Shown here: positions 2,814 through 55,258 of the stretch, in pieces
How positions within the stretch are numbered: the first letter of the stretch is position 1
How the letters are laid out: every line of letters begins with the position of its first letter
Assembly (NCBI RefSeq): GCF_029625335.1
Contig: NZ_CP121111.1
Span: 744,001 to 808,000 of the forward strand
Length of the DNA stretch: 64,000 nt
DNA from: Flavobacterium nitratireducens
Lineage (GTDB): Bacteria > Bacteroidota > Bacteroidia > Flavobacteriales > Flavobacteriaceae
Direction: 5' to 3'
Program-made: the position numbers and the translations under genes
The notes under the pieces: generated by a model
What the model was told of the DNA's origin: nothing
What the model saw: the letters and a program-made list of their open reading frames with translations, nothing else
Database searches by the model: none

Positions 2814-3689
2814 TTATTTCAAATTAAAACTTGACTTAGAAACCAATTCTCCTTTGTCAAAAACATTGATAAAATAAGTACCTGGTTGAAAATCTTTCCC
2901 TGGAAGGTTTTCAGATACTTGAACTGTTTTGTTCTCATATTTCACAGTACTTGTAAAACTATAAGTCAAATTCATACTATCAAAGTTTATTGTTTTCTTT
3001 TCACCTAGGACATTATTTTTACTATCAATCACTTGCACATAATAGGTTTTATCTCCTGATTTAGCAATTTCGTTACCCGCAATAGTAAAACTAATTTTAA
3101 GCATATTTGTTCTTCTTGCCTTATCCGTTTCAATTTCTTTACCTGAACTTCTCACTTTATACGCTGAACTTTGAATATTCAAAACAGTTAGCTTAGAACC
3201 TTTTTCAACAACTTTAGACAATTCATCATTTTGACCTACTAAAGCTTCATTGTACTTTTTAGACTCATTCAAAACCACAACGGTACTATCACGTTGTGCT
3301 TTAACTACTGTATTCTCATTTTTCAAACCTTCGTTTTCAGCCATTAAAGCTTTCAATTTGTTTTGTAAAAGATTCATTTTAGTTTTAAAAGCGGATAAAT
3401 CTCCTTTAGATTGTTTTACTTCTGCCATCAAACTAACCACTTTATCTCTTTCTTGAATTAATTCATCAGACATTGAGGTGTTTTCCGCAATAGCTGCATC
3501 ATAAGTAGATTTTAATTCTTCTAAATCTTTTAATACTGACTCTTTTTCACTAACAGTAGTTGTCAAAACTGTTTGTACTTTCTCAGTATCAGAAGACAAT
3601 TTGAATATATAAACCAAACTTCCTACTAATAAGACTGCTAATACTGCTATGACAGCCTTTAGACTTGTACTACTTTGTTTACTTTCCAT
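2814..3689 (-). CDS. Membrane-anchored coiled-coil protein, conserved in Flavobacteriia
   Basis: This 291-residue protein has one membrane segment near the N-terminus (about residues 10-29, LKAVIAVLAVLLVGSLVYIF), a long coiled coil from about 35 to 165, and a C-terminal beta-rich domain of about 120 residues ending GTYFINVFDKGELVSKSSF. Homologues in this group are often labelled chromosome partitioning protein ParA, but there is no Walker A motif here, so that name is not supported. It is probably a periplasmic stalk-plus-head protein anchored in the inner membrane. Function unknown. Confidence 0.7.
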   Translation of the reverse strand: MESKQSSTSLKAVIAVLAVLLVGSLVYIFKLSSDTEKVQTVLTTTVSEKESVLKDLEELKSTYDAAIAENTSMSDELIQERDKVVSLMAEVKQSKGDLSAFKTKMNLLQNKLKALMAENEGLKNENTVVKAQRDSTVVVLNESKKYNEALVGQNDELSKVVEKGSKLTVLNIQSSAYKVRSSGKEIETDKARRTNMLKISFTIAGNEIAKSGDKTYYVQVIDSKNNVLGEKKTINFDSMNLTYSFTSTVKYENKTVQVSENLPGKDFQPGTYFINVFDKGELVSKSSFNLK

Positions 3690-3802
3690 TTTTTTAAACT
3701 TTTTTGAATTTTAATATTAATAGCAAATTTAACAATATAATTTTAACATATAACGTCTGTAAAGAATTTATATTATTTTTGTAGAAAAAATTTTCTACGC
3801 CA

Positions 3803-4845
3803 ATGGACAAATTTCTACCATTCACCATTCACGATCTTGCCAAAGTAACGAACCATCGAAGTGGAGAAATAAAATTTGGAGAGAAAATGCTAACTGTACC
3901 AGCAGGAGTTAATCCTCTCAATTTTTTAAAAAATTCTGAAGCAAAATATGTCCTTTTTGGAATTCCAGAAGACATTGGAATTAGAGCAAATTATGGCAGA
4001 CCCGGTGCGGCATCTGCTTGGAATGAAGCCATTAAAAGTATCGCCAATATTCAACACAATCGCTTTTGTAAAGGGAATCAAATTATTGTCATGGGACAAA
4101 TTAATGTCGCTGAGGAAATGGCAGAAGTTGAAAATTTAGACTTTAACAAAATTGATGACCGTGTAAAACTGAGCCAATTGGTAAAAAAATTGATAAAGAT
4201 GTTTCACACATCATTTTCAATATCGTCAAATTAGGAAAAATCCCAATCATCATTGGCGGTGGACACAATAATTCTTATGGTAATATTAAAGGAACGGCCT
4301 TGGCCAAAGGAAAACCCATCAATGCAGTTAACTTTGATGCCCATTCTGATTTTAGAATTTTAGAAGGACGCCATAGTGGCAACGGTTTTTCTTATGCCTA
4401 TGAAGAAGGATTTTTGAAAAAATATTTCATTTTTGGTTTACACGAAAATTATACTTCTAAAAACGTACTAGATATCATCAAAAAAATCGATGATAGAGTG
4501 CGGTACAATACTTACGATAGTATTAATATTCGAAAGGAAAAAAACTTTTCGCAAGAACTGGCTGTAGCTTTAGAGTTTATAAAAAGTGATTCTTTTGGAA
4601 TCGAAGTCGACCTAGACGCAATACCAAACATAGCGAGTAGCGCCATGACTTTAAGCGGATTTTCAGTTGAAGAATTGCGCCAATTTGTTTCTTTTTTTGC
4701 TAAAAATAAAAATGCGAGTTATTTACACATTTGCGAAGGCGCACCTGACCTAGATGTAGACAAGAACAATCACTTGATAGGAAAATTAATTGGATATTTA
4801 GTGACCGACTTTATCAAGTCAAATTCTATTAAGTATAACGTATAA
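3803..4845 (+). pseudogene. Arginase-family formimidoylglutamase, interrupted by a -1 frameshift in a seven-A run
   Basis: Two overlapping frames together encode one ureohydrolase of about 347 residues. The first part (3803 to about 4189) gives the N-terminus with GIPEDIGIRANYGRPGA. The second, in the -1 frame, gives the metal-binding motifs GGGHNNSYGN, NFDAHSDFR and EVDLDAIPN, equivalent to GGDHS, DAHxD and SxDxDxxDP of arginases. Formimidoylglutamase cleaves N-formimidoyl-glutamate to glutamate and formamide in histidine breakdown. The switch lies at 4183-4189 (GT followed by seven A): an eighth A would restore the reading GTA AAA AAA ATT. The run is also an A AAA AAA slippery heptamer in the zero frame. 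A sequencing or assembly error is most likely, a true mutation or recoding less so. Confidence 0.8.
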
Positions 4846-36648: not shown

Positions 36649-36930
36649 CTGAACTTGTTTCAGAATCCCTGAACTTGTTTCAGAATCCCTGAACTTGTTT
36701 CAGAATCCCTGAACTTGTTTCAGAATCCCTGAACTTGTTTCAGAATCCCTGAACTTGTTTCAGAATCCCTGAACTTGTTTCAGAATCCCTGAACTTGTTT
36801 CAGAATCCCTGAACTTGTTTCAGAATCCCTGAACTTGTTTCAGAATCTCTGAACTTGTTTCAGAATCCCTGAACTTGTTTCAGAATCCCTGAACTTGTTT
36901 CAGAATCCCTGAACTTGTTTCAAAATCTTT
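36649..36930. repeat. 14-copy tandem array of a 20-bp palindromic repeat
   Basis: The unit GAACTTGTTTCAGAATCCCT repeats 14 times, head to tail, starting at 36651; one copy differs by a single base (36841-36850) and the last is degenerate. Each unit includes the near palindrome TTCTGAA-CTTGT-TTCAGAA formed across unit borders. The array has no spacers, so it is a direct minisatellite rather than a CRISPR. It lies directly after the secreted protein gene. Confidence 0.95.
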
Positions 36931-36950
36931 TCTTTTAATTAAGCACAAGC

Positions 36951-37143
36951 TTTTGTCAGTTCGAGCTAGCCTGCACTGAGCATAGACGAAGTGTCGAGAA
37001 CTCAGTAAAAACTAATCCAACTTTTGTCAGTTCGAGCTAGCCTGCACTGAGCATAGACGAAGTGTCGAGAACTAACTAAATTAAATTCAGCTTTTTGTCA
37101 GTTCGAGCTAGCCTGCACTGAGCATAGACGAAGTGTCGAGAAC
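36951..37143. repeat. Three copies of a dispersed 51-bp repeat
   Basis: Copies of TTTTGTCAGTTCGAGCTAGC... ending AGTGTCGAGAAC lie at 36951-37001, 37022-37072 and 37093-37143, separated by about 20 bp of unrelated sequence. Related shorter motifs (GACTTCGCTCAGTGC) also occur inside the IS91-like transposase gene at 45507-45549, so the family is dispersed. Confidence 0.9.
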
Positions 37144-37387: not shown

Positions 37388-38431
37388 ATGAAATGGTCAG
37401 CTAAACCTATTGTCCACAAAGGAGAAAAACGAATTGGCGTATATTTTGAAAAAAACACCGAATTAATTGCTCGAATTAAACAAATTGAAGATGCCCGATG
37501 GAGTCAGCAAAAAACAGTGTGGCACATTCCCGATACCGAAGAAAATAGAATACGATTTAAAATTACACCTCTCTCTCAAACTATTCCATCAGAAGAAGCT
37601 CAAGTACAAATAGAAAAATTCAAACAATGGATGCGTTCCAAACGATATAGCAAAAGTACTATTGTAACCTATTGCGAAGCTTTGAAATCTTTTTTACTGT
37701 TTTACAGAGAAAAGGCCATTGCAGCAATTACAAACGAAGATGTGATTATCTATAATAACGATTATATTTTGAAAAATAATCTATCTGCCTCCTACCAGAA
37801 TCAAATTGTCAATGCAATTAAACTTTATTTTAAAACTATTCAAGATACAAAAATTGAGGTTGATAAAATTCCCCGACCTAAACGCGCCAAAGTTTTACCT
37901 AATGTTTTGAGCAAGGAAGAAATCAAATTGATTTTGAATGCCCATAACAACCTCAAACACAAAATGATGCTTTCGATGATTTACAGTTGCGGTTTGCGCA
38001 GTGGCGAATTATTGGCTTTACAACCCGTTCATATCGATTCTAAAAGAAATATAGTTTTGCTCAAAAATTCAAAGGGCAAAAAAGACAGAATTGCTCCTTT
38101 GAGTCCCAAAATACTCGAAATGTTAAGAGAATATTACACTATTTGTAAACCAACCACTTATTTATTTGAAGGACAAACTAAAGGACAGCCTTATGATTCT
38201 AGGAGCCTTCAACTTATTCTAAAGCAAGCCTTGACCAAAGTTAACATTAAGAAACCTGTTACACTACATTGGCTACGTCATAGTTACGCCACACACCTGC
38301 TAGAAAGCGGTACCGATTTGCGATACATTCAAGAACTTTTGGGACACAACAGTAGCAAAACAACCGAAATTTACACTCATGTAAGTACGAAAAGTATTCA
38401 ACAAATAAAAAGTCCTTTTGATGATTTGTAA
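37388..38431 (+). CDS. XerC/XerD-like tyrosine recombinase with an N-terminal extra domain
   Basis: This 347-residue protein starts at ATG 37388 (an upstream in-frame ATG lies in repeats and is not used). Residues 1-80 resemble a short DNA-binding or arm domain (MKWSAKPIVHKGEKRIGVYF), followed by a SAM-like core-binding domain and a catalytic domain. Catalytic residues seen: YSCGLRSGELLAL (first R), LHWLRHSYATHLLESG (HxxR), LGHNSSKTTEIY (second His and nucleophile Tyr). It is a site-specific integrase acting on double-stranded or hairpin DNA. It lies immediately upstream of the restriction-Kiwa cassette and of the hairpin elements that bracket it, so it may mobilise that cassette. No direct evidence for its target. 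Confidence 0.85.
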   Translation: MKWSAKPIVHKGEKRIGVYFEKNTELIARIKQIEDARWSQQKTVWHIPDTEENRIRFKITPLSQTIPSEEAQVQIEKFKQWMRSKRYSKSTIVTYCEALKSFLLFYREKAIAAITNEDVIIYNNDYILKNNLSASYQNQIVNAIKLYFKTIQDTKIEVDKIPRPKRAKVLPNVLSKEEIKLILNAHNNLKHKMMLSMIYSCGLRSGELLALQPVHIDSKRNIVLLKNSKGKKDRIAPLSPKILEMLREYYTICKPTTYLFEGQTKGQPYDSRSLQLILKQALTKVNIKKPVTLHWLRHSYATHLLESGTDLRYIQELLGHNSSKTTEIYTHVSTKSIQQIKSPFDDL

Positions 38432-38477: not shown

Positions 38478-38537
38478 GCGAAACAAACCTTCGCCAATCT
38501 ACCCTATTTTGGGTGTATATACGAAGGTTTGTTTCGC
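38478..38537. repeat. Perfect 16-bp inverted repeat hairpin
   Basis: GCGAAACAAACCTTCG (38478-38493) and CGAAGGTTTGTTTCGC (38522-38537) are exact complements separated by 28 bases. It could be a cruciform or a strong RNA stem downstream of the recombinase. It might serve as the gene's terminator, but it lacks a T run on its 3' side. Confidence 0.9.
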
Positions 38538-38637
38538 ATATATACTAGTTGCCTGCAACCGTAGAGCGACAGTGCTAAATATCAACATTCCGACAAAAAA
38601 GAAACATTTTTTCGGCAAAGCCGTTTGGCTATTCTTC

Positions 38638-38703
38638 GCAAAAATTAAAAGAGGTGCAACCAACCGCACAATGGCAACACTTTCGCACCACATTTAATTT
38701 TGC
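38638..38703. repeat. Cassette-border hairpin E1, left of the restriction-Kiwa operon
   Basis: GCAAAAATTAAAAGAGGTGC (38638-38657) pairs with GCACCACATTTAATTTTGC (38685-38703), leaving a loop with CCAACCGCACAATGGCAA. It is followed by CCCCAACGC. The loop, the ACA/AGA mismatch bubble and the CCAACGC flank are shared with hairpin E2 beyond the operon, while the stem sequences differ. The 397-bp noncoding stretch from 38432 to 38828 contains this, the poly(A) run and the 16-bp hairpin. Confidence 0.75.
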
Positions 38704-38766
38704 CCCAACGCTCCCAAGCCCACCCACCACCCCAATATTTTTTTGACAGGAATTTCAACTAAAAAC

Positions 38767-38797
38767 TTTGGCAATCGGAACATAATGTTTAAATTTG
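38767..38797 (+). promoter_or_regulatory. Consensus promoter of the restriction-Kiwa operon
   Basis: TTTG (38767-38770) is separated by exactly 19 bases from TAAATTTG (38790-38797), a full TTG-N19-TAnnTTTG promoter. Transcription would begin near 38804, about 25 bp before the controller gene. Confidence 0.85.
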
Positions 38798-38810
38798 CCA
38801 AAATTGTCAA
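38768..38810 (+). promoter_or_regulatory. Three TTGNCAA boxes overlapping the -33, -7 and start site
   Basis: TTGGCAA (38768-38774), TTGCCAA (38795-38801) and TTGTCAA (38804-38810) are near-palindromic heptamers overlapping the -33, the -7 and the likely start site. The spacing of the last two is 9 bp. They are plausible operators for the HTH controller protein encoded first in the operon. Confidence 0.6.
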
Positions 38811-38828
38811 GGTAAAAATTTCAAGAAG

Positions 38829-39155
38829 ATGAAAGAAACATTTGGAGCATACATTCACAAACTTAGGTCTGAAAACGGCTTGACTTTGACCAAACTTGCG
38901 GCTGCATTGGACATTGACCAATCTACACTTTCAAAAATTGAAAATGGGAAAAGAAATGTACCCGAAGAAATATTGCCCAAACTTTCAGCCTTTTTTAATC
39001 TTGACTTGAAAAAATTAGAACACGAATATTTAAGTGAGAAAATTGCAGAGCTGATTTATCCACAAGAAGAAACCAAAGAAATATTCAAAGCAGCCGAAGA
39101 AAAGGCAAAATATTTCAGAACAATAAAAACGCAACAAGGTACAATAAAGTTTTAA
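38829..39155 (+). CDS. XRE-family controller protein of the restriction-modification operon
   Basis: This 108-residue protein starts with a helix-turn-helix: IHKLRSENGLTLTKLAAALD IDQSTLSKIENGKRNVPEEIL-type pattern at residues 7-47, then a helical tail. Such small XRE proteins before methyltransferase genes act as C (controller) proteins, delaying endonuclease expression until methylation is complete. The gene starts the operon, 3 bp before the C5 methyltransferase gene. Its own promoter contains three TTGNCAA boxes, consistent with autoregulation. Confidence 0.85.
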   Translation: MKETFGAYIHKLRSENGLTLTKLAAALDIDQSTLSKIENGKRNVPEEILPKLSAFFNLDLKKLEHEYLSEKIAELIYPQEETKEIFKAAEEKAKYFRTIKTQQGTIKF

Positions 39156-39157
39156 CT

Positions 39158-40213
39158 ATGGTAGGAGCATCACTATTTTCAAGTGCAGGCATAGCGGAAA
39201 CTTACTTTGATGAAGTAGGAATAAACATTATTGCTGCTAATGAATTGGTTCAGGAAAGAGCCGATTTGTATCAGGCTTTATATCCAAATTCAAAAATGAT
39301 TGCAGGAAGTATTTTAGACGAAAATGTTTTTAAAACACTCGTAAAAAATACTCCCGAAAAATTAGACTTTCTGATTGCTTCACCTCCTTGCCAAGGAATG
39401 AGTGTTGCAGGAAAAAACAGAAATATTGAGCAAATGCTCAATGACGAGAGAAATTATCTTGTTTTCAAAATCATTGATTTTATCAAGCTAAAATCACCAG
39501 ACTTCGTGCTGATTGAAAATGTTCCGACATTTTTCAAATTGGTTTTGCCTTACAAAAATCAACAATTAAAAGTCGTTGAAATTTTAAATCTTCTTTTTGG
39601 CAAAGAATACAACATTGAAGCAAATGTTTATGATGCAGCTGAATTTGGTGTAGCTCAAAGACGAACAAGAGCAATTATAAAATTGTATCGAAAAGGTAAA
39701 AAATGGGGACAACCAATAAAATCTGAAAAGCAAATAACCGTAGAAGAAAAAATTGGTTTTTTGCCAAGCATTGAAGCAGGACAAAAATCAAATGTGAAAT
39801 GGCACTTTGCCCGAAAACATTCTGATAACCACATTCAATGGATGAAACATACACCAACAGGACAAACAGCATTTGACAATAAAGAATTTTTCCCTGTAAA
39901 ACCAAATGGAGAAAAAATCAAAAGTTACAACACATCGTATAGACGAATTAATTGGGATGAACCTGCACCGACAATTACGATGCGTAACGATGCAATCAGT
40001 TCGCAACTGAATGTACACCCGGGCAGAAAATTGAAAAACGGAACGTATTCTGATGCAAGAGTTTTGACACCTTTAGAATTGATGTTGTTGTCGTCTTTGC
40101 CACAAGATTGGAATATTCCAGACAACACCCCCGAATTGCTTATTAGAAAATGTATTGGCGAATGTATTCCGCCTTTGCTCATTAAAAATATTGTTGCCCA
40201 AATAAACCGATAA
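39158..40213 (+). CDS. DNA (cytosine-5-)-methyltransferase
   Basis: This 351-residue protein is a C5 methyltransferase. It begins with LFSSAGIAETYFDEVG (motif I), IASPPCQGMSVAGK holds the catalytic cysteine at about residue 78 (motif IV), IENVP (motif VI) near 117, AEFGVAQRRTRAI (motif VIII, QRR), and the C-terminal block PAPTITMRND plus RVLTPLELMLLSSLP. It makes m5C at one strand of the target site. Together with the adenine methyltransferase two genes downstream it would protect an asymmetric site. Target recognition lies between residues 180 and 260. The gene ends 1 bp before the endonuclease gene start. Confidence 0.93.
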   Translation: MVGASLFSSAGIAETYFDEVGINIIAANELVQERADLYQALYPNSKMIAGSILDENVFKTLVKNTPEKLDFLIASPPCQGMSVAGKNRNIEQMLNDERNYLVFKIIDFIKLKSPDFVLIENVPTFFKLVLPYKNQQLKVVEILNLLFGKEYNIEANVYDAAEFGVAQRRTRAIIKLYRKGKKWGQPIKSEKQITVEEKIGFLPSIEAGQKSNVKWHFARKHSDNHIQWMKHTPTGQTAFDNKEFFPVKPNGEKIKSYNTSYRRINWDEPAPTITMRNDAISSQLNVHPGRKLKNGTYSDARVLTPLELMLLSSLPQDWNIPDNTPELLIRKCIGECIPPLLIKNIVAQINR

Positions 40214-40214
40214 T

Positions 40215-41663
40215 ATGACTTTAAGAATTGATAGTAAAAAGTGGATTTTATACAGACACACAAGGGATTTTGATAAACTTTGTGTTGTTGCTGAATTTTT
40301 GAAGTCTTACACCAAAACAGGAATTTCAACAGATGAAAAAACACAATTAAATTTAAAATTACGTGAATTGGGATTGTATAATGAACGAAATCCCGAATTA
40401 CCGCTTGATGCGATAAATCACAAAATCAATCAGCTTTCGTATTATATGTTTGGCTACCAAGCCAAGGTTGACGGACAAGACAGATTTTTGTTTAGTCCGC
40501 TTGGCAACTTGTTTTTGAAACACCTTGAAGATAAAGAGAAAACGGCTAAAATATTTCTTACAATGCTTTGGGCTGTTCAATATCAGCACCCACACAGCGG
40601 AACTGATAATGAGTTTCAACTTTATCCGTTTCGTTTGATTTACAAATTACTTTCAGAACCAAAACTTTCAAATAAACTTTACGCTTTTGAAGTAGCATAT
40701 TCGGTTGTTTTTCTGAAAGAAATAAACAATACGTCTTACGAAGAATTGGTAAATGACTTATTGGAATTACGCAAACTTTCAGATGAGCAACTCGCTCAAA
40801 AATTTCAAGAAGACCGACACGCATTAGTGAATTCAGCTTACGAGTGGGATTACTACGTTTCAAGTTTATTTGAAAGCGCAGGTGTTTTAGACAAAAAAGA
40901 TGGAGTTGTGATTACAAAATTACAACATGGCAACACAAACACTTTCCGAAAAATAACACGAAACGAAGTTTCAATTCCAGAAAATTTGAAATCATTAATT
41001 GAACAATTAGAAAACGAATATTCGTTTTTAGAGAAATCTTTATTACTCAACGACCCTGAACGTTTGAAATTAGACGTAATAAAAGAGATATACAGTTTCT
41101 ATCCAAAAACACTTTTGGTTGAAATAGGCGAAGCCGTTGACGATTTCAAATTTGAATTGCTTAATCTCCCAAAATTGATTGAGCAATATGCAAACAATAA
41201 TGACGGAGCGGAAGCATATCTTTTTGAAGATGCTTTGGCAGAAGGCTTCAATATGTTCTACAACGTAGAAGCAAACAAAATTAGCGGAGCAGGAAATACA
41301 GATTTAGAATGTTTATACATTCCAAGAAAAAAGAAATTTACTGTTGAAGCCAAATCAACTAAAAACAAACTTTCAAGCGTAAACGCAGGAAGATTAGCAG
41401 GACACAGAGAAAAAATTGGTGGTGCTTATACAATCGTTGTAACACCAAGATATGTTCCTGCTGTACTTCAAGACATTCGCACAAGTCCAATCGTAATCAT
41501 TCGTGCAAATACTTTTTCGGAATATTTATACAACTGTATTGACAATGATATACGAGAAATTGATTATGAAGATTTTGACAGTATCATCGTCAACAATCTT
41601 GGAAAAGACATCAGTAAAAACATTTCAGATTTAACGATTTCAAGGTTCGCAACCCAAAAATAA
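40215..41663 (+). CDS. Type II restriction endonuclease, PD-(D/E)xK fold, AlwI-like
   Basis: This 482-residue protein has a C-terminal nuclease core: GAGNTDLECLYI then KKFTVEAKST near residues 362-382 gives the D...ExK pattern (D near 365, E and K near 378 and 380). N-terminal blocks (LYRHTRDFDKLC, ELGLYNERNPELP, FLFSPLGNLFLKHL, LYPFRLIYKLL) recall the AlwI-type Type IIS enzymes, which cut outside asymmetric sites and need two methyltransferases. That agrees with the two methylases of different kind here. The assignment to AlwI is from memory of the family. It is coupled to its neighbours by 1-2 bp gaps. Confidence 0.68.
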   Translation: MTLRIDSKKWILYRHTRDFDKLCVVAEFLKSYTKTGISTDEKTQLNLKLRELGLYNERNPELPLDAINHKINQLSYYMFGYQAKVDGQDRFLFSPLGNLFLKHLEDKEKTAKIFLTMLWAVQYQHPHSGTDNEFQLYPFRLIYKLLSEPKLSNKLYAFEVAYSVVFLKEINNTSYEELVNDLLELRKLSDEQLAQKFQEDRHALVNSAYEWDYYVSSLFESAGVLDKKDGVVITKLQHGNTNTFRKITRNEVSIPENLKSLIEQLENEYSFLEKSLLLNDPERLKLDVIKEIYSFYPKTLLVEIGEAVDDFKFELLNLPKLIEQYANNNDGAEAYLFEDALAEGFNMFYNVEANKISGAGNTDLECLYIPRKKKFTVEAKSTKNKLSSVNAGRLAGHREKIGGAYTIVVTPRYVPAVLQDIRTSPIVIIRANTFSEYLYNCIDNDIREIDYEDFDSIIVNNLGKDISKNISDLTISRFATQK

Positions 41664-41671
41664 AACTTGCT

Positions 41672-42433
41672 ATGATTACAATTACAAGAGAAGACAATAT
41701 GAATTTAATGGCAAGGTATCCTGACAATTATTTTGACCTTGCCATAGTTGACCCACCTTATGGGATTTTGAACAAAACCAAACGAGGTGGAGACCATAAA
41801 TTTAATATGGACGAATACAGTCAATGGGATGTAAAGCCTGATGATGAGTATTTTAATGAGCTTTTTCGTGTTTCAAAAAATCAAATCATTTGGGGAGGAA
41901 ATTACTTTGGGCAACTTTGGGCAAGAAGTCCATACAATAAAGGTTTTATTATTTGGGACAAAAAACAACCTGAAACATTAAATAATTTTTCAATGGCTGA
42001 AATGGCTTGGAGTTCACTTGACAAGCCATCAAAAATTTTTGAGTTCAGCGTTAGAAAAAACAGAAACAAAATTCACCCAACACAAAAACCTGTCGAACTT
42101 TACGAATGGCTTTTGAAAATGTATGCCAAACAAGGCGACAAAATTTTAGACACACATTTAGGAAGCGGAACAATTGCTGTTGCTTGTTACAATGCGGGTT
42201 TGAGTTTAACCGCTTGTGAAATCAGTGAAACATATTATTTGAGTGCATTAGAAAAAATCAAAGAAGTTGTTCCTAAAACTGCAATTCATACCAACGATTT
42301 AGAGGCATTTGCATTGACATTTCCCGAACAAAAAACATCAAAAAACGGACTGCATAAATTGTACAAAGAACACGTTGAGCAATTACGACTTTTCAAAGAA
42401 GAAAGAGCAAAGTATAATGCAATGGCAAAATGA
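41672..42433 (+). CDS. DNA adenine-N6 (or cytosine-N4) methyltransferase, beta class
   Basis: This 253-residue protein has motif IV as LAIVDPPYGI at residues 23-32 and motif I later as ILDTHLGSGTIAVACY near 161, the order of beta-class amino-methyltransferases. DPPY fits N6-adenine methylation. RNKIHPTQKPVELYEWLLK (motif X region) is also present. It would protect the strand not modified by the C5 enzyme. Its stop overlaps the ATG of the next gene in an ATGA, showing that the Kiwa-like genes belong to the same operon. Confidence 0.88.
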   Translation: MITITREDNMNLMARYPDNYFDLAIVDPPYGILNKTKRGGDHKFNMDEYSQWDVKPDDEYFNELFRVSKNQIIWGGNYFGQLWARSPYNKGFIIWDKKQPETLNNFSMAEMAWSSLDKPSKIFEFSVRKNRNKIHPTQKPVELYEWLLKMYAKQGDKILDTHLGSGTIAVACYNAGLSLTACEISETYYLSALEKIKEVVPKTAIHTNDLEAFALTFPEQKTSKNGLHKLYKEHVEQLRLFKEERAKYNAMAK

Positions 42434-43020
42434 AAAAAGTAAAGCTAAATAATATTGCGGTTTTGGTGTTGTTCATTACATCATATATTCCTTTGTTTGG
42501 ATTGTTAATTTTACGACAAATCAAGCAAAATATTGAGTATTTGAATTTTGGGTACTTCAACCAAGAAAGTATTTTATTGGCTTTTAGAAAATTCGGATTA
42601 AGTGGTTTTCTTTTTCTTCTTGCCATTTTCGGTTTTATTGGATTGAAATTCTTATTGACAAATTTAGAGAAGAAAAGACCAAATGGAGAACTTGTAAAAA
42701 TAGTTGAAGTCGAAAATAAAAATAGTGAAACCATAAGTTATATTTCTACTTACATCGTTCCGTTTATTTTTCAAGACACGAACAATTTGTTTGATATTTC
42801 TTCGATTTTCATTGTTTTGGTCATCATCTTTTTCATTTATACCAAATCAAATATGATAGTGATAAATCCAATTTTGAGTATTACTCACACACTTTACCAA
42901 ATTGAATACAATAAAAAAGGTAAAACGAAAAAAGGACTTTTGATAACAAAAGAAGAATATTTGGAAAGTGAACAAGAAGTAAAAATTAACTTAATTACGA
43001 AAAATATTTATTATGGATAA
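42430..43020 (+). CDS. kwaA: KwaA-like membrane protein of a Kiwa anti-phage system
   Basis: This 196-residue protein has four hydrophobic segments (about residues 8-28, 54-75, 102-116 and 120-140) and a soluble C-terminal tail with HTLYQIEYNKKGKTKKGLLI. Its size, its four spans, and above all its position directly before a DUF4868 gene match KwaA, the inner membrane sensor of Kiwa. Kiwa detects phage attachment or injection at the membrane, and KwaB then acts against late replication. I rely on the gene pair and on shape rather than on a motif I can quote. It overlaps the upstream methylase gene by 4 bp and the next gene by 8 bp. Confidence 0.6.
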   Translation: MKKVKLNNIAVLVLFITSYIPLFGLLILRQIKQNIEYLNFGYFNQESILLAFRKFGLSGFLFLLAIFGFIGLKFLLTNLEKKRPNGELVKIVEVENKNSETISYISTYIVPFIFQDTNNLFDISSIFIVLVIIFFIYTKSNMIVINPILSITHTLYQIEYNKKGKTKKGLLITKEEYLESEQEVKINLITKNIYYG

Positions 43021-44032
43021 ATCTATATTGGTTGATATAATTGGTCAGGCAAAAGCGGAAAACTTGAAGATGTACTTTGTAACTCGCATTCTCAAAGAGG
43101 GAATGAAAGCCAATTCACGGGTTTTAGAAAAGTTTGATTTTAAAGTTTATCAAATTGAAATTACTGACGAAGTAAGAAAGTATCTTTATGAACTTTCACT
43201 AAAACAGTTTCAGAAAATCCAGAACAACGAAGATTTACACTTCTTTGATTATGATGTTATTGCAGATGAAACAGAGCATTTATTTACTTATCAAATGGAA
43301 AATAAAGTCGGCTCATTTTCAGATGTTGTTTACAATCAATTAAACCAAAGTCCTCAAAAAATTACAGATTTAAACGACATACTTCAAGATGAAACACTTT
43401 GGGCATATTGTATAGAGTTTGAAATTGACAGCAATAAATCTTTCTACACATTTAGAAAAATATCACCTGGAAAAGTAGGTGTTGAAAAGGAAAAAGACGG
43501 AGAAAAGAAAAGTTTAGGCAGCCAAATAAGAACCTATTTTGACACCAATACAAATACGTTGTCGCTATTAAAAAGTGATACTGTTTATTTAGATAAGCAA
43601 ATAGATTGCATCTTTTACGAAGAAACTTTTTACGTTTTGAAAAAGTATTACTTTGAACAACTTGTTGGTTTACAAGAGGAATACAAAAAGAGAGCGGAAG
43701 ACGTTGCGACTTCAATTTCTAAACACGAATGTTTTGGAGATGTAAAACTTCTATCCGACAAAATAGAAACAAAAGTTGCTATTCACAAAAAGCTAATGAA
43801 GTTGGAAAAAATCGGAAATCTAAATTCTCTAACTTCAAAAAATATCAAGAAATTAGAAACATTAGGCAAGAAGAAAAAAGCACCAATAAATTTGAAAGAC
43901 GGCAAAATTCAGTTTGAAACGGAAGAAGATATAGACAATGTAATCAAACTTTTATGCGACTACTTCAAAACAGGAGATTATTCGGGTAAAGCATACGGAA
44001 CGTACGCAGGGAAATTACAGACAGCCGAGTAA
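43013..44032 (+). CDS. kwaB: KwaB-like protein (DUF4868) of a Kiwa anti-phage system
   Basis: This 339-residue protein resembles DUF4868/KwaB: an N-terminal part with EITDEVRKYLYELSL, then FYTFRKISPGKVG, a LLKSDTVYLDKQIDCIFYEETFYVLKKYYFEQ core near 178-213 and a C-terminal CDYFKTGDYSGKAYGTYAGK. In E. coli Kiwa, KwaB binds DNA and blocks phage replication, with RecBCD as a control layer. It is somewhat longer than the 315-residue E. coli protein. It is the last gene of the operon and its ATG lies inside the kwaA end. The cassette-border hairpin E2 starts 10 bp after its stop. Confidence 0.68.
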   Translation: MDKSILVDIIGQAKAENLKMYFVTRILKEGMKANSRVLEKFDFKVYQIEITDEVRKYLYELSLKQFQKIQNNEDLHFFDYDVIADETEHLFTYQMENKVGSFSDVVYNQLNQSPQKITDLNDILQDETLWAYCIEFEIDSNKSFYTFRKISPGKVGVEKEKDGEKKSLGSQIRTYFDTNTNTLSLLKSDTVYLDKQIDCIFYEETFYVLKKYYFEQLVGLQEEYKKRAEDVATSISKHECFGDVKLLSDKIETKVAIHKKLMKLEKIGNLNSLTSKNIKKLETLGKKKKAPINLKDGKIQFETEEDIDNVIKLLCDYFKTGDYSGKAYGTYAGKLQTAE

Positions 44033-44042
44033 CCCAACGCTT

Positions 44043-44106
44043 TTGGTAGCACATTTGCATTTTTCCAACCGCACAAAGCCAAACAAAAATGCAAAAGAGC
44101 TACCAA
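44043..44106. repeat. Cassette-border hairpin E2, right of the restriction-Kiwa operon
   Basis: TTGGTAGCACATTTGCATTTTT (44043-44064) pairs with AAAAATGCAAAAGAGCTACCAA (44085-44106), 20 of 22 positions, with loop CCAACCGCACAAAGCCAAAC. CCAACGC flanks the hairpin on both sides (44034-44040 and 44108-44114) as direct repeats. The loop and the ACA/AGA mismatch match hairpin E1. Confidence 0.8.
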
Positions 44107-44231
44107 GCCAACGCATCACAGAAACCGAAGAACACGACTGAAAAATGAAGCGTGAAAAGAACGGCAGCAGGCAACAGCAAGGGATTCGTTGCGTGCGAAG
44201 CACGAACAATGAAGCCCGTGTTGAACAGCTT

Positions 44232-44265
44232 GTCCCGATAATTATCGGGAGAACCGCTGCCATTC
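44232..44265. repeat. Palindrome CCCGATAATTATCGGG, probable transposon-end hairpin
   Basis: A perfect 16-bp palindrome (44234-44249) lies about 155 bp beyond the 3' end of the IS91-like transposase gene, the place where IS91-type elements carry their origin hairpin. A plus-strand T-rich terminator hairpin (AGAGGA...TCCTCT then T run) is at 44308-44333. A CGTGCgaaGCACG hairpin lies at 44193-44205. The noncoding stretch 44033-44403 holds only these and hairpin E2. Confidence 0.5.
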
Positions 44266-44403
44266 CACAACTATGGAGTTATCGTAAAGTTTTGATAGAG
44301 AATTTCAAGAGGATTTAGTGTCCTCTTTTTTTTGAAGTGGTTTCAAAGATGGTTTTGTCGTGTTTTCCTTCACCTTAGGGCATAAGTTCCCTTACCCATA
44401 AAA

Positions 44404-45564
44404 TCAACTTTCACGGGGAAATGGGTTTTGGCTACCGCCAAGATACCAAGCAGGCGGACCACGCTGGTCAAAAACCACTATTCGGTGCAAATTGCCTGTT
44501 TTGCAACACGGACATTTGGGCAAAAAAGGCTTCTTTTCTGCTTTTTCCAAGACCTTTACTTGGAGTTTCTCCTGCAAAAACTTTAGCTTCCCACGCTTCC
44601 AAGTACTGCTCAAAAAACCATAATGCCGAATCTTGACAAAACGCTTGGGCAAAATATGTAACGCAAAGCGTCTGATAAATTCTTGATGCGTGAGTGTCAT
44701 TTGCTTTTTGACGCCCGCCACTCGGTAATCCTTGTAATCAAAAGTGACATTTTCGCTGTCAATGCTTTTGATTCGGTGGTTGCTGATAGCGATTTTATGA
44801 GTGTATCTACCCAGATATTCCACCACCGATTGTGGACTTCCAAAAGGCTTTTTAGCAAAAACTACCCAAGGTTTTTGCCATAATTCCTGACGGATTTGTT
44901 CATACTTAATGGGTTCTTTCTTTTTGAGTTTCTCACAAAACTTCGCTCGAAACACTTTCGATAAAGCCTTGACTGGGAAAAGAAATTTACCGTCGGCACG
45001 ACTGTTTTTCCACTGTCCGTCGGTATCGATTCCTCCGCCTGGCACAATGCAATGCAGGTGCGGATGCAGACTCAACTGCTGTCCCCAGGTGTGCAAAACG
45101 GCAATCATACCCAGTTGTATTGCTTTGGCTTTGCCAAATTTTTGAAGCGTTTCCCAAGTGGCTTCAAACAAGGTGTCATACACTATTTTGGGTTGGTGAA
45201 TCGCCAAAGAATTAATCGCTTCGGGCAGGGTAAAAACCACGTGGAAGTACGGCACAGGCAAAAGTTCTGTACTTCTGGCCTGAATCCATTCTTCTCGATT
45301 TTTGCCCTGACACTTTGGGCAGTGTCTGTTTCTGCAAGAGTTGTAACTAATGCTCAAATTACCACAACCATCGCAAGCATCGATATGACCGCCCAATTCG
45401 GCCGTTCGGCATTTTCTTATGGCTGATAGCGTGCGTAGTTGCCAAGTATTCAATCCATAATCTTCGATTTTAGAACCAATCTTCCGCAGGACATCGGCTA
45501 CTTCATTTCGACTACGCTCAATGCAGGCTTTTCGACTTCGCTCAGTGCTTACCTCCGGTTGCAT
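44404..45564 (-). CDS. IS91 family rolling-circle transposase
   Basis: This 386-residue protein has a four-cysteine zinc finger (IDACDGCGNLSISYNSC and RHCPKCQGKNREEW), the HUH motif in LSLHPHLHCIVPGGG near residue 165, and the two-tyrosine motif VEYLGRYTHK near 245. It nicks and rejoins one DNA strand to replicate the element into a target. The first 20 residues (STERSRKACIERSRNEV) are encoded by a dispersed chromosomal repeat, which has been inserted at the gene's 5' end; the original protein probably began near EVADVLRKIG. The end may also be altered by the same region's repeats. Confidence 0.88.
   Translation of the reverse strand: MQPEVSTERSRKACIERSRNEVADVLRKIGSKIEDYGLNTWQLRTLSAIRKCRTAELGGHIDACDGCGNLSISYNSCRNRHCPKCQGKNREEWIQARSTELLPVPYFHVVFTLPEAINSLAIHQPKIVYDTLFEATWETLQKFGKAKAIQLGMIAVLHTWGQQLSLHPHLHCIVPGGGIDTDGQWKNSRADGKFLFPVKALSKVFRAKFCEKLKKKEPIKYEQIRQELWQKPWVVFAKKPFGSPQSVVEYLGRYTHKIAISNHRIKSIDSENVTFDYKDYRVAGVKKQMTLTHQEFIRRFALHILPKRFVKIRHYGFLSSTWKRGKLKFLQEKLQVKVLEKAEKKPFLPKCPCCKTGNLHRIVVFDQRGPPAWYLGGSQNPFPRES
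45507..45549. repeat. Dispersed repeat forming the 5' end of the transposase gene
   Basis: Plus strand TTTCGACTACGCTCAATGCAGG and TTTTCGACTTCGCTCAGTGC are two tandem copies of a unit related to the 51-bp repeats at 36951-37143 (ACTGAGCATAGACGAAGTGTCGAGAAC). They are read in frame as STERSRKACIERSR in the transposase. Confidence 0.75.
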
Positions 45565-46497
45565 TGGGCAAAAAGAGTATCAAGGGGACTAAACTTTTGT
45601 TGGCTAGCAAGTTGGGCAATCTGTAAATACTCCAAAGTGGTTTCTATATTCTGATGTCCCAAAAGGTCTTTGAGGGTTATAATATCCATGCCATCTTCGA
45701 GCAAATGCGTGGCATAACTATGCCGAAGGGTGTGCGTGTGAACCTCTTTTTTGACACCAGATGCCTTGGCCACTTGCCTCACTACCCATTGCACGCCTCG
45801 TTGGCTGTAACGACTATCAAAATCGCCTCCAGCTCTTTGGATAGGTTGCCCATTAAAAAGGTAATCTTGTGGTTTTTCGGCTTCGATATATTTTTTGAGT
45901 CCTCGTATTAAATGAACCGATAAAGGAACATAGCGGTCTTTTTTACCCTTTCCTTGCACTACTTTGAGTTGCTTTCTATCAAAATCTAAATCTTGTAATC
46001 GTACAGAACGTGCTTCCATACAACGCAATCCGCAACCATACAACAAGCCAATAAGGATGCGGTGTTTGAGTAATTTAGCACCTTGAAGCATGACCCAAAC
46101 TTCTTCTTTACTCAAAACAAAGGGTAGTTTTTTCTCGTGTTTTATCGAAGGCAAACGCAAGTACTCATAAGGCAAGCCTTCTGATTTTAGAAGAAAGCGA
46201 AGACCATAAACACAATGTTTAAAATAGGTTTGCGAAGGGGTTTTGGACTTTTTCTGCTGGTAAAACAAGTAATCCTGTACTTGTTCAGGATCTAAATCCG
46301 TTGGGATTTTACCAAAATACAAGGAAATAGAAGCCACATGCCGAGAATAATTATTGAAAGTACTTTGGCTTCTGCCCAATACCGAAATCGTACGTTCAAA
46401 GCGATTGATGAGTTCCTCAAAACCCAGAACTTCTCGTTTAGCTTGGTTGAGAATTTTGTTTTCTCTTAATTCTTCAACATTCTTTTTTTGTAGTCAT
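45549..46497 (-). pseudogene. XerC-like tyrosine recombinase of the IS91-like element, start codon displaced by one extra base
   Basis: The main frame (to TTG 46379) gives 276 residues with a SAM-like domain and catalytic residues LLYGCGLRCMEARSV (R), THTLRHSYATHLLEDG (HxxR), LGHQNIETTLEY (H and Tyr). In the same frame coding continues upstream (VEELRENKILNQAKREVLGFEELINRFERTISVLGRSQ) but no start is found; ATG 46497 gives MTTKKNVEEL only if one A is removed from the seven-A run at 46489-46483. Full length would be about 315 residues. It overlaps the transposase start, and the two work together in IS91-like elements of this group. Confidence 0.8.
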
Positions 46498-46552
46498 ATC
46501 TTACAGAATTTAATTATATTCGTAAGGTACAAAATCAAGGTATGTGCTACCG

Positions 46553-46690
46553 AAGGTTTAGTTCAACAGCGGTTTGGCGCAAGCGGGGCTGACGTAATTC
46601 TATTGAAGATTAGTGCTATATTTAAAGAGTGGTATTTCTAATCAACAGTGGTGCTAAAAATCCCCCACTGCGGCAATACCCGAAACGTTA
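46553..46690. repeat. attC-like element E5
   Basis: This 130-bp structured stretch contains GTTCAACAGCGGTTTGGCGCAAG at its left end and CCCACTGCGGCAATACCCG then AAACGTTAGTGGCAACCGC at its right end. CCACT/AGTGG and CGGTTT/AAACG can pair. The right end aligns with elements E3 and E4 at 54.4 and 55.1 kb, which also end in a GTTA-rich core (GTTATAGGC, GTTATAGCC). It immediately precedes a two-gene pair and looks like a gene-cassette border. Confidence 0.55.
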
Positions 46691-46743
46691 GTGGCAACCG
46701 CAGGACGACCACACAAAAAGTGATAAATTAGAAAATAAAAGAA

Positions 46744-47478
46744 ATGACTAAAAAACAGGAACTCTTGAATTTAATTACTAACGAGTTTAATGATTTCAAA
46801 AAACTCAATTATGGACACAATATTGTTCCAAATTCTGTTCCTATTGTTTGGTTTGGGAACGCAGAAGAATATTTAAAATCGGAATTGAAAATCATAACCG
46901 TCTCCCTCAATCCTTCTGACATAGAATTTAAAATAAACAAAACTTCCAAACCCACAACCAATCTTAGATTTCCAGATTACAATGGTTCGATAGAAAGTCT
47001 ATATATAGCTTACAATAATTATTTTCTAAAAAATCCTTACAACTCTTGGTTTAAAGCAAGTTTTGGTGCTGTCTTAACAAGTTTTGACGCTTCCCATTAC
47101 CACAATGCCCTTAATACTGCATTGCACACGGACATTGGCTGTTCATACGCTACAAGTCCAACTTGGACAGGATTAACAAATTCGGACAAAAATGTATTAG
47201 AACATATTGGAGCAAAATCTTGGCATAGTTTGGTAGAAATTTTAGAGCCTGACGTAATTCTGTATTCAGCCTCAAATAATTTTGAGAATAAAATTTCATT
47301 CCCTCAAGTTGGTAATTGGACATCTATAAATGTGAACTCAAAAAGCCCCTTATTAAAAGGAACATTCAAAATTTCTCAAAATAAAAATTCAGCTGTCTTG
47401 TTTCAAGTGCAAGGAAGAAAACCTTTTCTTCAAACAAGCAAGGAAGAAAAACTAAAGTTTAAAGACCACATAAAATGA
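46744..47478 (+). CDS. Uracil-DNA glycosylase-like fold protein, unknown function
   Basis: This 244-residue protein shows the start of a UDG-type fold: NSVPIVWFGNAEEYLKSELKIITVSLNPSD near residues 33-60 (compare GxNPS of single-strand-selective glycosylases), and ALHTDIGCSYATSPTWTGL near 135 resembling the DNA-interaction loop. I recognise the family shape, not a named member. It could remove or bind modified bases. It overlaps the next gene by 4 bp (ATGA), so the two are an operon, and it directly follows an attC-like element, suggesting a defence cassette gene. Confidence 0.5.
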   Translation: MTKKQELLNLITNEFNDFKKLNYGHNIVPNSVPIVWFGNAEEYLKSELKIITVSLNPSDIEFKINKTSKPTTNLRFPDYNGSIESLYIAYNNYFLKNPYNSWFKASFGAVLTSFDASHYHNALNTALHTDIGCSYATSPTWTGLTNSDKNVLEHIGAKSWHSLVEILEPDVILYSASNNFENKISFPQVGNWTSINVNSKSPLLKGTFKISQNKNSAVLFQVQGRKPFLQTSKEEKLKFKDHIK

Positions 47479-47879
47479 AAATTCAACTTAATCACCCTGG
47501 ACATCAAAAGCCTTTTAGGTTAGGACACGGATATTGTCAAATCGGAAATCAAATTATTCGTAAATGGAGTAATGATGTTGTTCATTTTAGAAAGTTTATT
47601 CAAAATAATGGTCATTATGTAATTGATTTAGAAGATTTGCAACCCTCACAAGCCGACTTATTTTTTTGGGGAGAATGGGAAGGGAATTCATACTTTGATG
47701 AATTTCCAAATGCTGATTATCGTATTTTACCAAATGGGCTTCACAAACTATTTCATTCAACTAAAATTAGAGGTTTACAAAATACTGACCCTTACATTTA
47801 CGGAGAGAATTTTAAGTATTGCGTTTGCAAACAATGTGCAAACATCCAACTAAAAAACATAATAAAACTTCATTTTTAA
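47475..47879 (+). CDS. Partner of the glycosylase-like gene; probably truncated at its 3' end
   Basis: This 134-residue protein begins MKIQLNHPGHQKPFRLGHGYC and has conserved-looking blocks DVVHFRKFIQNNGHYV, ADLFFWGEWEGNSYFDEFP and PNGLHKLFHSTKIRG LQNTDPYIYGENFKYCVCKQ. I recall longer homologues (about 200 residues or more) continuing after the CVCKQ block with a serine- or glycine-rich segment, while here it ends in ANIQLKNIIKLHF, so it looks truncated. It shares an operon with the glycosylase-like gene. Function unknown. Confidence 0.4.
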   Translation: MKIQLNHPGHQKPFRLGHGYCQIGNQIIRKWSNDVVHFRKFIQNNGHYVIDLEDLQPSQADLFFWGEWEGNSYFDEFPNADYRILPNGLHKLFHSTKIRGLQNTDPYIYGENFKYCVCKQCANIQLKNIIKLHF

Positions 47880-54130: not shown

Positions 54131-54387
54131 TGGAAAACGAAATACAAGATTTAATGGAACGTTGTAAAGAAATTTACAGCGAAACCCGAGGGGCTTACTT
54201 TATTATCAATTGTAATGACGAAGGATGGAAACTTCAGATTAACAGCACAGGACTTTTGTTCAAAGGAGAATTAAAGGAAGTTTTGGGAAAATATATTACA
54301 GAAGTTACCTCTGAACGGCAACAAAGACAAAATCCAAAAAACAAACATGATCCTAAAAAAATTTCAGTACTAACGAGTGACGGCTAG
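54130..54387 (+). CDS. Phage protein whose 3' end appears interrupted by a cassette insertion
   Basis: The 85-residue frame (MENEIQDLMERCKEIYSET to KISVLTSDG) runs into attC-like element E3, and its last residues TSDG are encoded by the element. A short in-frame tail without a start, HWPIAEKIKREYQDLIP then KPKKSDYPF, appears at 55701-55781, right after the second cassette gene and before a terminator. I infer that it was originally the C-terminus of this gene. Confidence 0.55.
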   Translation: MENEIQDLMERCKEIYSETRGAYFIINCNDEGWKLQINSTGLLFKGELKEVLGKYITEVTSERQQRQNPKNKHDPKKISVLTSDG

Positions 54388-54505
54388 GCGTCCGTTGCGG
54401 ACTTAGGAAACGAATAGTTTCCGTTACCGAGAAACGCCAAAGGAAAAATAAATATTAATGAACCGCAGATTTAGCAATGGCGCTTAGCCGCGGTTATAGG
54501 CTGGC
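54376..54505. repeat. attC-like structured element E3
   Basis: Nested hairpins: GTCCGttgCGGAC (54390-54402), GGAAACgaataGTTTCC (54406-54422), enclosed by GGCGT/ACGCC arms (54387-54391 and 54434-54438). Then AACCGC (54461-54466) pairs with GCGGTT (54490-54495), followed by core GTTATAGGC. The 3' portion aligns with elements E4 and E5. Confidence 0.65.
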
Positions 54506-55077: not shown

Positions 55078-55258
55078 GCTACCGATTTCGTGAGTTTTCG
55101 GTAGCATTACTGTTAACGGTTTCGGGCTTTACGCTAGGTGGCGTTTCAAGGCACTCACTTTCAATTTAGCACTAATGATGATAGAAGCACAAATGTTCAA
55201 TATACTACTGCACCGCCATTGAGCCAAACGCATGTTATAGCCAGTGCTTTTTGAAACG
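55078..55258. repeat. attC-like structured element E4
   Basis: The first hairpin GCTACCGA...TCGGTAGC (55078-55105) is followed by GTTAACGGTTTCGGGC. CGTTTCAAGGCACT (55142-55155) is the inverted repeat of AGTGCTTTTTGAAACG (55243-55258), and GCGTTT/AAACGC also pair inside. The core CAAACGCATGTTATAGCC near the right end aligns with E3 and E5. This stretch of about 220 bp between genes holds no other feature. Confidence 0.65.

Follow-up and report, generated by a model that had tools for sequence, protein, structure and literature searches.

A six-gene restriction-modification and Kiwa operon as the likely first cassette of an integron-like array in Flavobacterium nitratireducens

Introduction

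Integrons consist of an integrase gene, an adjacent attI site and gene cassettes that each end in a foldable attC site, with a GTT/AAC core, R boxes of 7 bp and matching cassette ends; defence cassettes are among their cargo. The same anatomy is present in a 64,000-nt stretch of the Flavobacterium nitratireducens chromosome (contig NZ_CP121111.1, positions 744,001 to 808,000; hereafter the window). There, a six-gene operon that joins restriction-modification (RM) genes to the Kiwa defence pair very probably holds, judged from the sequences around it, the first cassette position in an integron-like array of the chromosome. The array differs from described integrons in that its integrase lacks the IntI patch, its matching ends extend over about 10 bp instead of 7, and a six-gene, 5.7-kb cassette carries an internal frame of hairpins.

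Xanthomonas integrons are reported to contain Kiwa and RM cassettes (PMC12444791, citing Darracq 2025, Getz 2025 and Kieffer 2025). For the Bacteroidetes, the IntegronFinder 2.0 article speaks of In0 elements only in earlier work and then of one complete integron, in Salinibacter (PMC9024848). An older survey places intI genes in the Bacteroidetes/Chlorobi group (PMC2426708), and integrons in Bacteroidota are reported in PMC8618304. No study of flavobacterial or patch-less integrons was among the matches listed in a literature search that had most subscription papers and all preprints outside its scope.

Kiwa is described as forming a lattice at the membrane; KwaA detects the infection there, and KwaB binds the injected DNA but does not cut it (PMC12904381). 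In the window, KwaA and KwaB are adjacent by family models, as in known Kiwa systems, but they are genes 5 and 6 of an RM operon. Both score below the cut-offs of the NCBIfam equivalog models (NF041622 for KwaA, NF041623 for KwaB), and the pair is therefore a divergent Kiwa. The RM part resembles type II systems with a controller and two methylases: the controller is first, and two methylases of different chemistry lie around one endonuclease, an arrangement we take to be type IIS-like. Unlike the enzymes of such systems, the window endonuclease can be named to 'type II' only.

Boundaries of the probable first cassette

The tyrosine recombinase gene int1 ends 116 bp before a GTT that lies in an attI-like core, CATATATACTAGTT, and its orthologues head arrays in other genomes, as integron integrase genes do. 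The core contains the motif TATAWACWAGTT, which is conserved at 31 of 35 orthologous loci in the genus. Recombination would occur at this GTT, where the cassette begins with GTTGCCTGC; the exact complement, GCAGGCAAC, follows 134 bp past KwaB (Table 1). Each 9-mer occurs once in the window, and they form the sole such pair there. By chance, random pairs of regions matched over at least 9 bp in 15 of 4000 trials, and a random 120-nt stretch held the complement of a 9-mer in 27 of 20000. The cassette thus delimited measures 5.7 kb and occupies the first array position, with the controller starting 281 bp past the attI GTT. Between int1 and attI is a palindrome that folds with a 16-bp outer stem and is far more stable than shuffled sequences (z -7.7); to the eye, palindromes of differing sequence occupy the same place in downstream sequences of many relatives.

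Beyond the 3' end, an attC-like body continues on the far side of an IS91-family insertion sequence (IS). This site was recognized by a covariance model, R1, built from attC-like sites of other genomes without the window: the match covers 46565-46689 with 38.5 bits (E 7.1e-6 over 124 kb). Support for reading the operon as a first cassette comes from the integrase gene, the attI-like site, the matching cassette ends and the attC-like site that follows. Sister restriction cassettes with the same hairpin frame are found at two other loci, L112, where attC sites are on both sides, and L142.

Table 1. Features of the integron-like locus (positions in the window)
Feature	Position	Strand	Evidence or remark
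Int1, tyrosine recombinase, XerA/integron-integrase-like	37388-38431	+	347 aa from ATG; without IntI patch
Palindrome between int1 and attI	38478-38537	.	z -7.7
attI-like core	38537-38550	+	recombination point inferred at GTT 38548
Cassette 1, 5' end (R'-like)	38548-38556	+	exact complement of 44167-44175
Hairpin E1, 5' bracket of operon	38641-38701	+	conserved with L015, L017, L112, L162
Controller (C), HTH_3	38829-39155	+	Pfam HTH_3 8.4e-14; PADLOC Control_protein 1.3e-8
m5C DNA methyltransferase	39158-40213	+	Pfam DNA_methylase 7.7e-56
Type II restriction endonuclease	40215-41663	+	PADLOC REase_II 6.2e-173
N6/N4 DNA methyltransferase (second methylase)	41672-42433	+	Pfam N6_N4_Mtase 1e-17; PADLOC MTase_II 2.7e-92
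KwaA, Kiwa membrane protein	42430-43020	+	PADLOC 7.7e-65; solved KwaA chain 9mrg (PDB) 7e-5
KwaB of Kiwa	43013-44032	+	PADLOC 9.1e-117; Pfam PF16162 7.2e-20, above cut-off
Hairpin E2	44043-44106	+	first base 10 nt past KwaB stop; recurs after nine restriction-type operons
Cassette 1, 3' end (R''-like)	44167-44175	+	134 bp past KwaB
IS91-family element, inserted in attC of cassette 1	44176-46567	-	Y2 transposase 44404-45564; tyrosine recombinase Int2 45549-46379
attC-like body of cassette 1	46568-46689	+	up to next GTT; R1 match 46565-46689
Cassette 2 (GTTAGTGGC...)	46687-47879	+	open reading frames 46744-47478 and 47475-47879

Arrays in related genomes

Are such arrays found elsewhere? Relatives of Int1 are encoded in 95 of 199 family genomes (E<=1e-60) and 55 of 150 genus genomes (E<=1e-90), and the loci compared were 20 family regions together with 35 of 57 further genus matches. 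Roughly half of the family loci have downstream repeats of about 120-200 bp, spaced every 500-1500 bp; self-repeats downstream of the integrase were absent in five of the 20. A walk from cassette to cassette gave 106 cassettes of 323-4261 bp in 21 loci, with up to 21 in succession at one of them. The start of a cassette (GTT and the bases that follow) was compared with its own end (bases and AAC). In eight more distant arrays these ends match over at least 8 bp in 71 of 94 cases, against 66 of 2322 mismatched pairs. At 15 of the 20 family loci the end of the first cassette is complementary over 9-10 bp to the GTT at attI, a test that used oriented loci, those from L023 to L051 not all being oriented. 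The same holds at 20 of 35 genus loci (21 at 8 bp or more), where swapped pairs matched in 121 of 1190 cases at 9 bp or more and in 235 of 1190 at 8 bp or more; related species may share cassettes, which would raise this background.

The attC-like sites of these arrays can be aligned as one structure. In 38 non-redundant sites with verified ends, none of them from the window, 86.8% of the cells are paired, compared with 33-41% in slid controls; both partners vary in 18 of 22 pairs, and the covariation score is 0.404 where controls reach at most 0.105. A structure derived from the very alignment on which it is scored has an advantage over its slid versions, but the margin here is large. R1, which was built from these 38 sites, has matches in 23 of 38 further loci and none in 15 (E<=0.1). 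Foldable sites with matching ends, the attC hallmark of integrons, are thus part of these arrays, the window's own site being split by the IS.

The integrase and the missing patch

Int1 scores 8.3e-62 with the NCBIfam XerA model and 3.4e-57 with TIGR02249, in both cases below the cut-off. Against the Vibrio cholerae integrase VchIntIA (PDB 2A3V) it aligns in two pieces, with 18 residues between the pieces compared with 60 in VchIntIA. Its catalytic boxes are 92 residues apart, and the spacing is 91-92 residues at all 49 loci with both motifs (55 examined), against 134 in VchIntIA as read from the alignment. The stretch that is absent, of about 42 residues, is the IntI patch. An extra stretch between the catalytic boxes served to select integron integrases in PMC2426708, and the added helix is described in PMC7790495 as enabling their shift from double-stranded to single-stranded sites. 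Strictly defined, Int1 does not count as an IntI; in anatomy the arrays are integron-like, and it is the patch alone that keeps them out of the class. A canonical IntI above the cut-off was found in none of 296 genomes of the order, a negative that carries little weight because no control genome matched either. Just upstream of int1, at 36650-37140, a 20-bp unit (TGAACTTGTTTCAGAATCCC) is repeated in tandem, and a longer repeat is present three times.

Several observations weigh against the cassette reading. One is the patch itself, which is held to be necessary for the use of folded attC sites and yet is missing from Int1. The attC of cassette 1 is split by the IS and its R1 score is moderate; folded alone, it is no more stable than shuffled sequences (z +0.2). 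Its end match is 9 bp, compared with 10 in most matching cassettes. For cassette 2 no 3' end was found: the next 76 kb hold no matching end of 9 bp and a single match of 8 bp. In the relatives, five of 20 family loci have no valid first cassette (none at L052, L054, L062 and L063, and at L056 a match away from attI that was judged spurious), and swapped pairs in the family also matched in 146 of 840 cases, counting any nearby GTT. A valid first cassette is likewise missing from 14 of 35 genus loci, several of which have little contig sequence left. R1 finds nothing in L016, L017 and L019-L022, all of which carry the same RM block. Lastly, 40 of 500 shuffles did as well as the alignment in one of the five covariation measures, that for further pair types.

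The six-gene operon

A reading made from the sequence only had described this region as a tight six-gene operon, and the listing of open reading frames with their translations places every gene where that reading had put it. The intergenic gaps are 2, 1 and 8 bp, the second methylase overlaps KwaA by 4 bp (ATGA), and KwaA overlaps KwaB by 8 bp. The operon has its own controller and upstream region, and therefore probably its own promoter. The proposed Kiwa assignment, with KwaB as a DUF4868 protein, is borne out by the family models (Table 1); a sequence search of the PDB gave no relative of KwaB at E<=0.1. An endonuclease and methylases in a single operon identify the RM genes as type II. The AlwI-like label given to the endonuclease was not confirmed in the same way: no model in Pfam or NCBIfam names the protein AlwI-like, and the PDB search gave no match to an AlwI structure, just two chance-level matches to salivary proteins. 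The label remains unproven, as does the joint regulation that the same reading proposed for the two defence types.

Hairpins E1 and E2

The operon was also said to be bracketed by matched hairpins that might allow it to move as one cassette. Both hairpins exist, but they are two different, related hairpins and not copies of one, and the fold of E2 is far more stable than chance (z -5.7) while that of E1 alone is not (z -1.3). Cassette-like mobility is supported in outline; E1 and E2 as the mobile ends are not. The recombination ends are those of the integron-like array and lie outside the hairpins (Table 1), and E1 and E2, tried as cassette ends or attC sites, were rejected since both are inside the matching ends.

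What, then, are the hairpins? E1 is conserved in five loci, the window included. The E2 pattern occurs in nine distinct places, 11-15 nt past the stop codon (counted to the GG of the stem), and all nine preceding operons, that of the window among them, are of restriction type. E2 follows RM and Kiwa genes in the window and L015, the same RM genes alone in L017 and L018, the same RM genes with another gene in L016, type I systems in L081 and in L079/L112 (here after a 73-residue open reading frame), a type II system in L142 and a type III system in L158. For L015, whose KwaB frame is broken, the distance was counted from the point where the KwaB match ends. Sequence conservation is the main signal, as only three of the 19 stem pairs have changed on both sides, with 96.5% of pairs kept. 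The pattern is present in 4 of 296 genomes of the order (the fourth, G621 with L082/L114, is outside the gene-content classification), and is therefore rare and not a general repeat; exact E1 and E2 patterns were each met in one viral contig. With nine out of nine E2 operons of restriction type, the E1-E2 unit looks like a frame common to restriction operons. Its relation to the cassette is plainest in L112, where the order is attC, GTTACCTGCAAC, E1, type I restriction genes, E2, TGCAGGTAAC, attC, with 10-bp ends. The corresponding unit in L142 is cassette 3 of the eight walked, with hairpins at both ends of a type II set of controller, endonuclease and two methylases.

Could the E1-E2 unit itself be the mobile element, with the integron as only one of its landing places? 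The hairpins do frame unrelated RM types, and L162, from another genome of the genus, has the six genes within an E1-E2 pair downstream of a class II tRNA synthetase gene; R1 detects no attC there in 14 kb. This possibility is nonetheless unlikely: the unit sits inside cassette ends in the window and in L112, the two hairpins are no pair of terminal repeats, and in L162 a cassette may have entered a secondary site.

RM block and Kiwa pair in other contexts

The operon had been called an RM operon fused with Kiwa. One operon it is, and the six-gene block does recur, in L009-L011 and in L162; the Kiwa models match, and the genes are not dispersed over different operons in all relatives. 'Fused' is too strong, as each part also occurs without the other. 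The RM block is found without Kiwa in L017, L018 and L022, and with another gene in place of Kiwa in L016. KwaAB is found with none of the window's RM genes in L012, L013, L014 and L163 (other RM genes were not searched for there), with an attC-like site after it in L012 and L013 and before it in L163. The Kiwa pair of L015 (KwaA 89% identical, KwaB 95% in its best-matching piece) lies within E1-E2 downstream of a different controller, methylase, endonuclease, methylase (C-M-R-M) operon, whose controller is 44% and whose methylases are 24-26% identical to those of the window and whose endonuclease belongs to another PADLOC family. These combinations indicate that the link between RM and Kiwa is modular.

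The copies in L009-L011 are one conjugative element: their 20-kb surroundings are 95-97% identical, over almost their full length, among three named species with the six genes conserved, and TraG, TraJ, relaxase and coupling-protein genes are neighbours in L009, where the gene families were read. Neither E1/E2 nor attC was found at the six-gene block there. Might the window copy then be an ordinary defence island that arrived on a conjugative element and came to rest by chance beside an integrase gene and an IS? The attC-less copies in L009-L011, with conjugation genes around them, and in L162 agree with this, and prophage-like genes and the IS adjoin the copy in the window. Yet chance would have to place the controller 281 bp past the attI GTT with exact ends that match across 5.6 kb; the attC was found by an independent model, and sister restriction cassettes lie between intact attC sites. 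A chance lodging is thus very improbable.

Both the endonuclease and KwaB are rare. KwaB is present in 2 of 397 family genomes (E<=1e-25), and among 395 genomes of the order the endonuclease was found in its own genome only (E<=1e-40); G795, a genome of the same genus, also has one, and a search of the protein database scored 1130 homologues. Neither the phage collection nor the plasmid collection held a match to the endonuclease, and a home on phages or plasmids was rejected.

An IS91-family element in the attC

The element that splits the attC of cassette 1 is assigned to the IS91 family by Pfam (Y2_Tnp 4e-64, Zn_Tnp_IS91 4.7e-32), by shared ends and by annotated relatives; a Y2 transposase gene with a tyrosine recombinase gene is the combination annotated in plasmid records. 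A search of viral contigs with the transposase gave no relative. The ends of the element are identical in L015 and L158 and similar in L159, and the Int2-side end is common to L119 and L120. Each copy continues into a different attC-like body, which, given the shared ends, indicates insertion in the cassette's attC directly after AAC. Excision of the cassette is probably hampered by this insertion. An attC-like site matched by R1 is present at the Int2 end in all six copies examined (window, L015, L158, L159, L119 and L120), a feature that sets the element apart from the annotated pairs; with Int2, it may be an attC-targeting IS.

That the transposase and Int2 genes form a second gene cassette with an attC of its own, as the 7-bp match between GTTGAAC at 44220 and GTTCAAC at 46561 would allow, is likewise very improbable, since the terminal hairpin outside GTTGAAC is common to copies in other contexts (L015, L158 and, diverged, L159), each continuing into a different attC body, and so belongs to the IS. 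A first proposed attC, at 44167-44226, was rejected on similar grounds: R1 misses it, and its hairpin is that of the IS as seen in L015, L158 and L159.

Proposed mechanism and significance

On the first-cassette reading, Int1 would capture circular cassettes at attI by way of folded attC sites, as IntI does. The endonuclease would cut phage DNA that does not carry the two methylations, and Kiwa would act separately at the membrane, with KwaA sensing infection and KwaB binding incoming DNA. A single operon would in this way provide two layers against the same injection event. E1 and E2 frame the operon body inside the cassette; most likely they are common to restriction cassettes and allow operon bodies to be exchanged between shared ends by homologous recombination.

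A broader and more tentative proposal, with odds somewhat short of even, is that the Flavobacteriaceae harbour a second, patch-less kind of integron, with an XerA-like integrase and folded attC sites, in which type I, II and III restriction operons, some of them with Kiwa, serve as interchangeable bodies between the two fixed hairpins E1 and E2, an exchange frame nested in a cassette. If this is so, searches that depend on the patch have missed much of the cassette capture in a major phylum. The role ascribed to the patch becomes directly testable where covarying attC-like sites accompany a patch-less integrase in widespread arrays, and the nested frame suggests a route for module exchange of whole restriction and Kiwa operons.

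Minor observations

The two open reading frames of cassette 2 overlap, encode 244 and 134 aa and have no family match in Pfam, NCBIfam or PADLOC; the genes beyond are prophage-like as their families read. A scan of the own genome with R1 gave at least five matches at E<0.01, three in the window and two elsewhere; of the 6395 first-look candidates 150 were scored, and weak sites may therefore have escaped the scan. Two of those in the window, on the minus strand at 54372-54495 (65.3 bits) and 55115-55236 (34.6 bits), lie about 620 bp apart in the prophage-like region, and the GTT end of the former has no exact 8-bp complement in a 1-kb stretch. The two elsewhere on the chromosome (G000:C1), at 1214279-1214403 (+, 71.4 bits) and 2964757-2964876 (-, 52.4 bits), stand alone far from the array and possibly represent cassettes inserted at secondary sites. 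Short contigs were tried as circular cassettes and rejected, as none of nine had a terminal repeat.

The KwaB frame is interrupted in L162 (8524-9540) and L015 (5305-6320), and copies elsewhere are intact. L013 is a contig labelled as a Limnohabitans metagenome-assembled genome, with KwaAB 63-71% identical to that of the window and an attC-like site of 77.7 bits; it is perhaps a mis-binned Bacteroidota contig. In L016 the position of Kiwa behind the same RM genes is taken by a 290-aa protein (3081-3950), a candidate for a further defence gene that shows a weak Stk2-like match (2.7e-9). Cassettes with a controller and an m5C methylase adjoin attC-like sites in other integron-like arrays, at L145 (3868-6267) and L063 (4353-6791).

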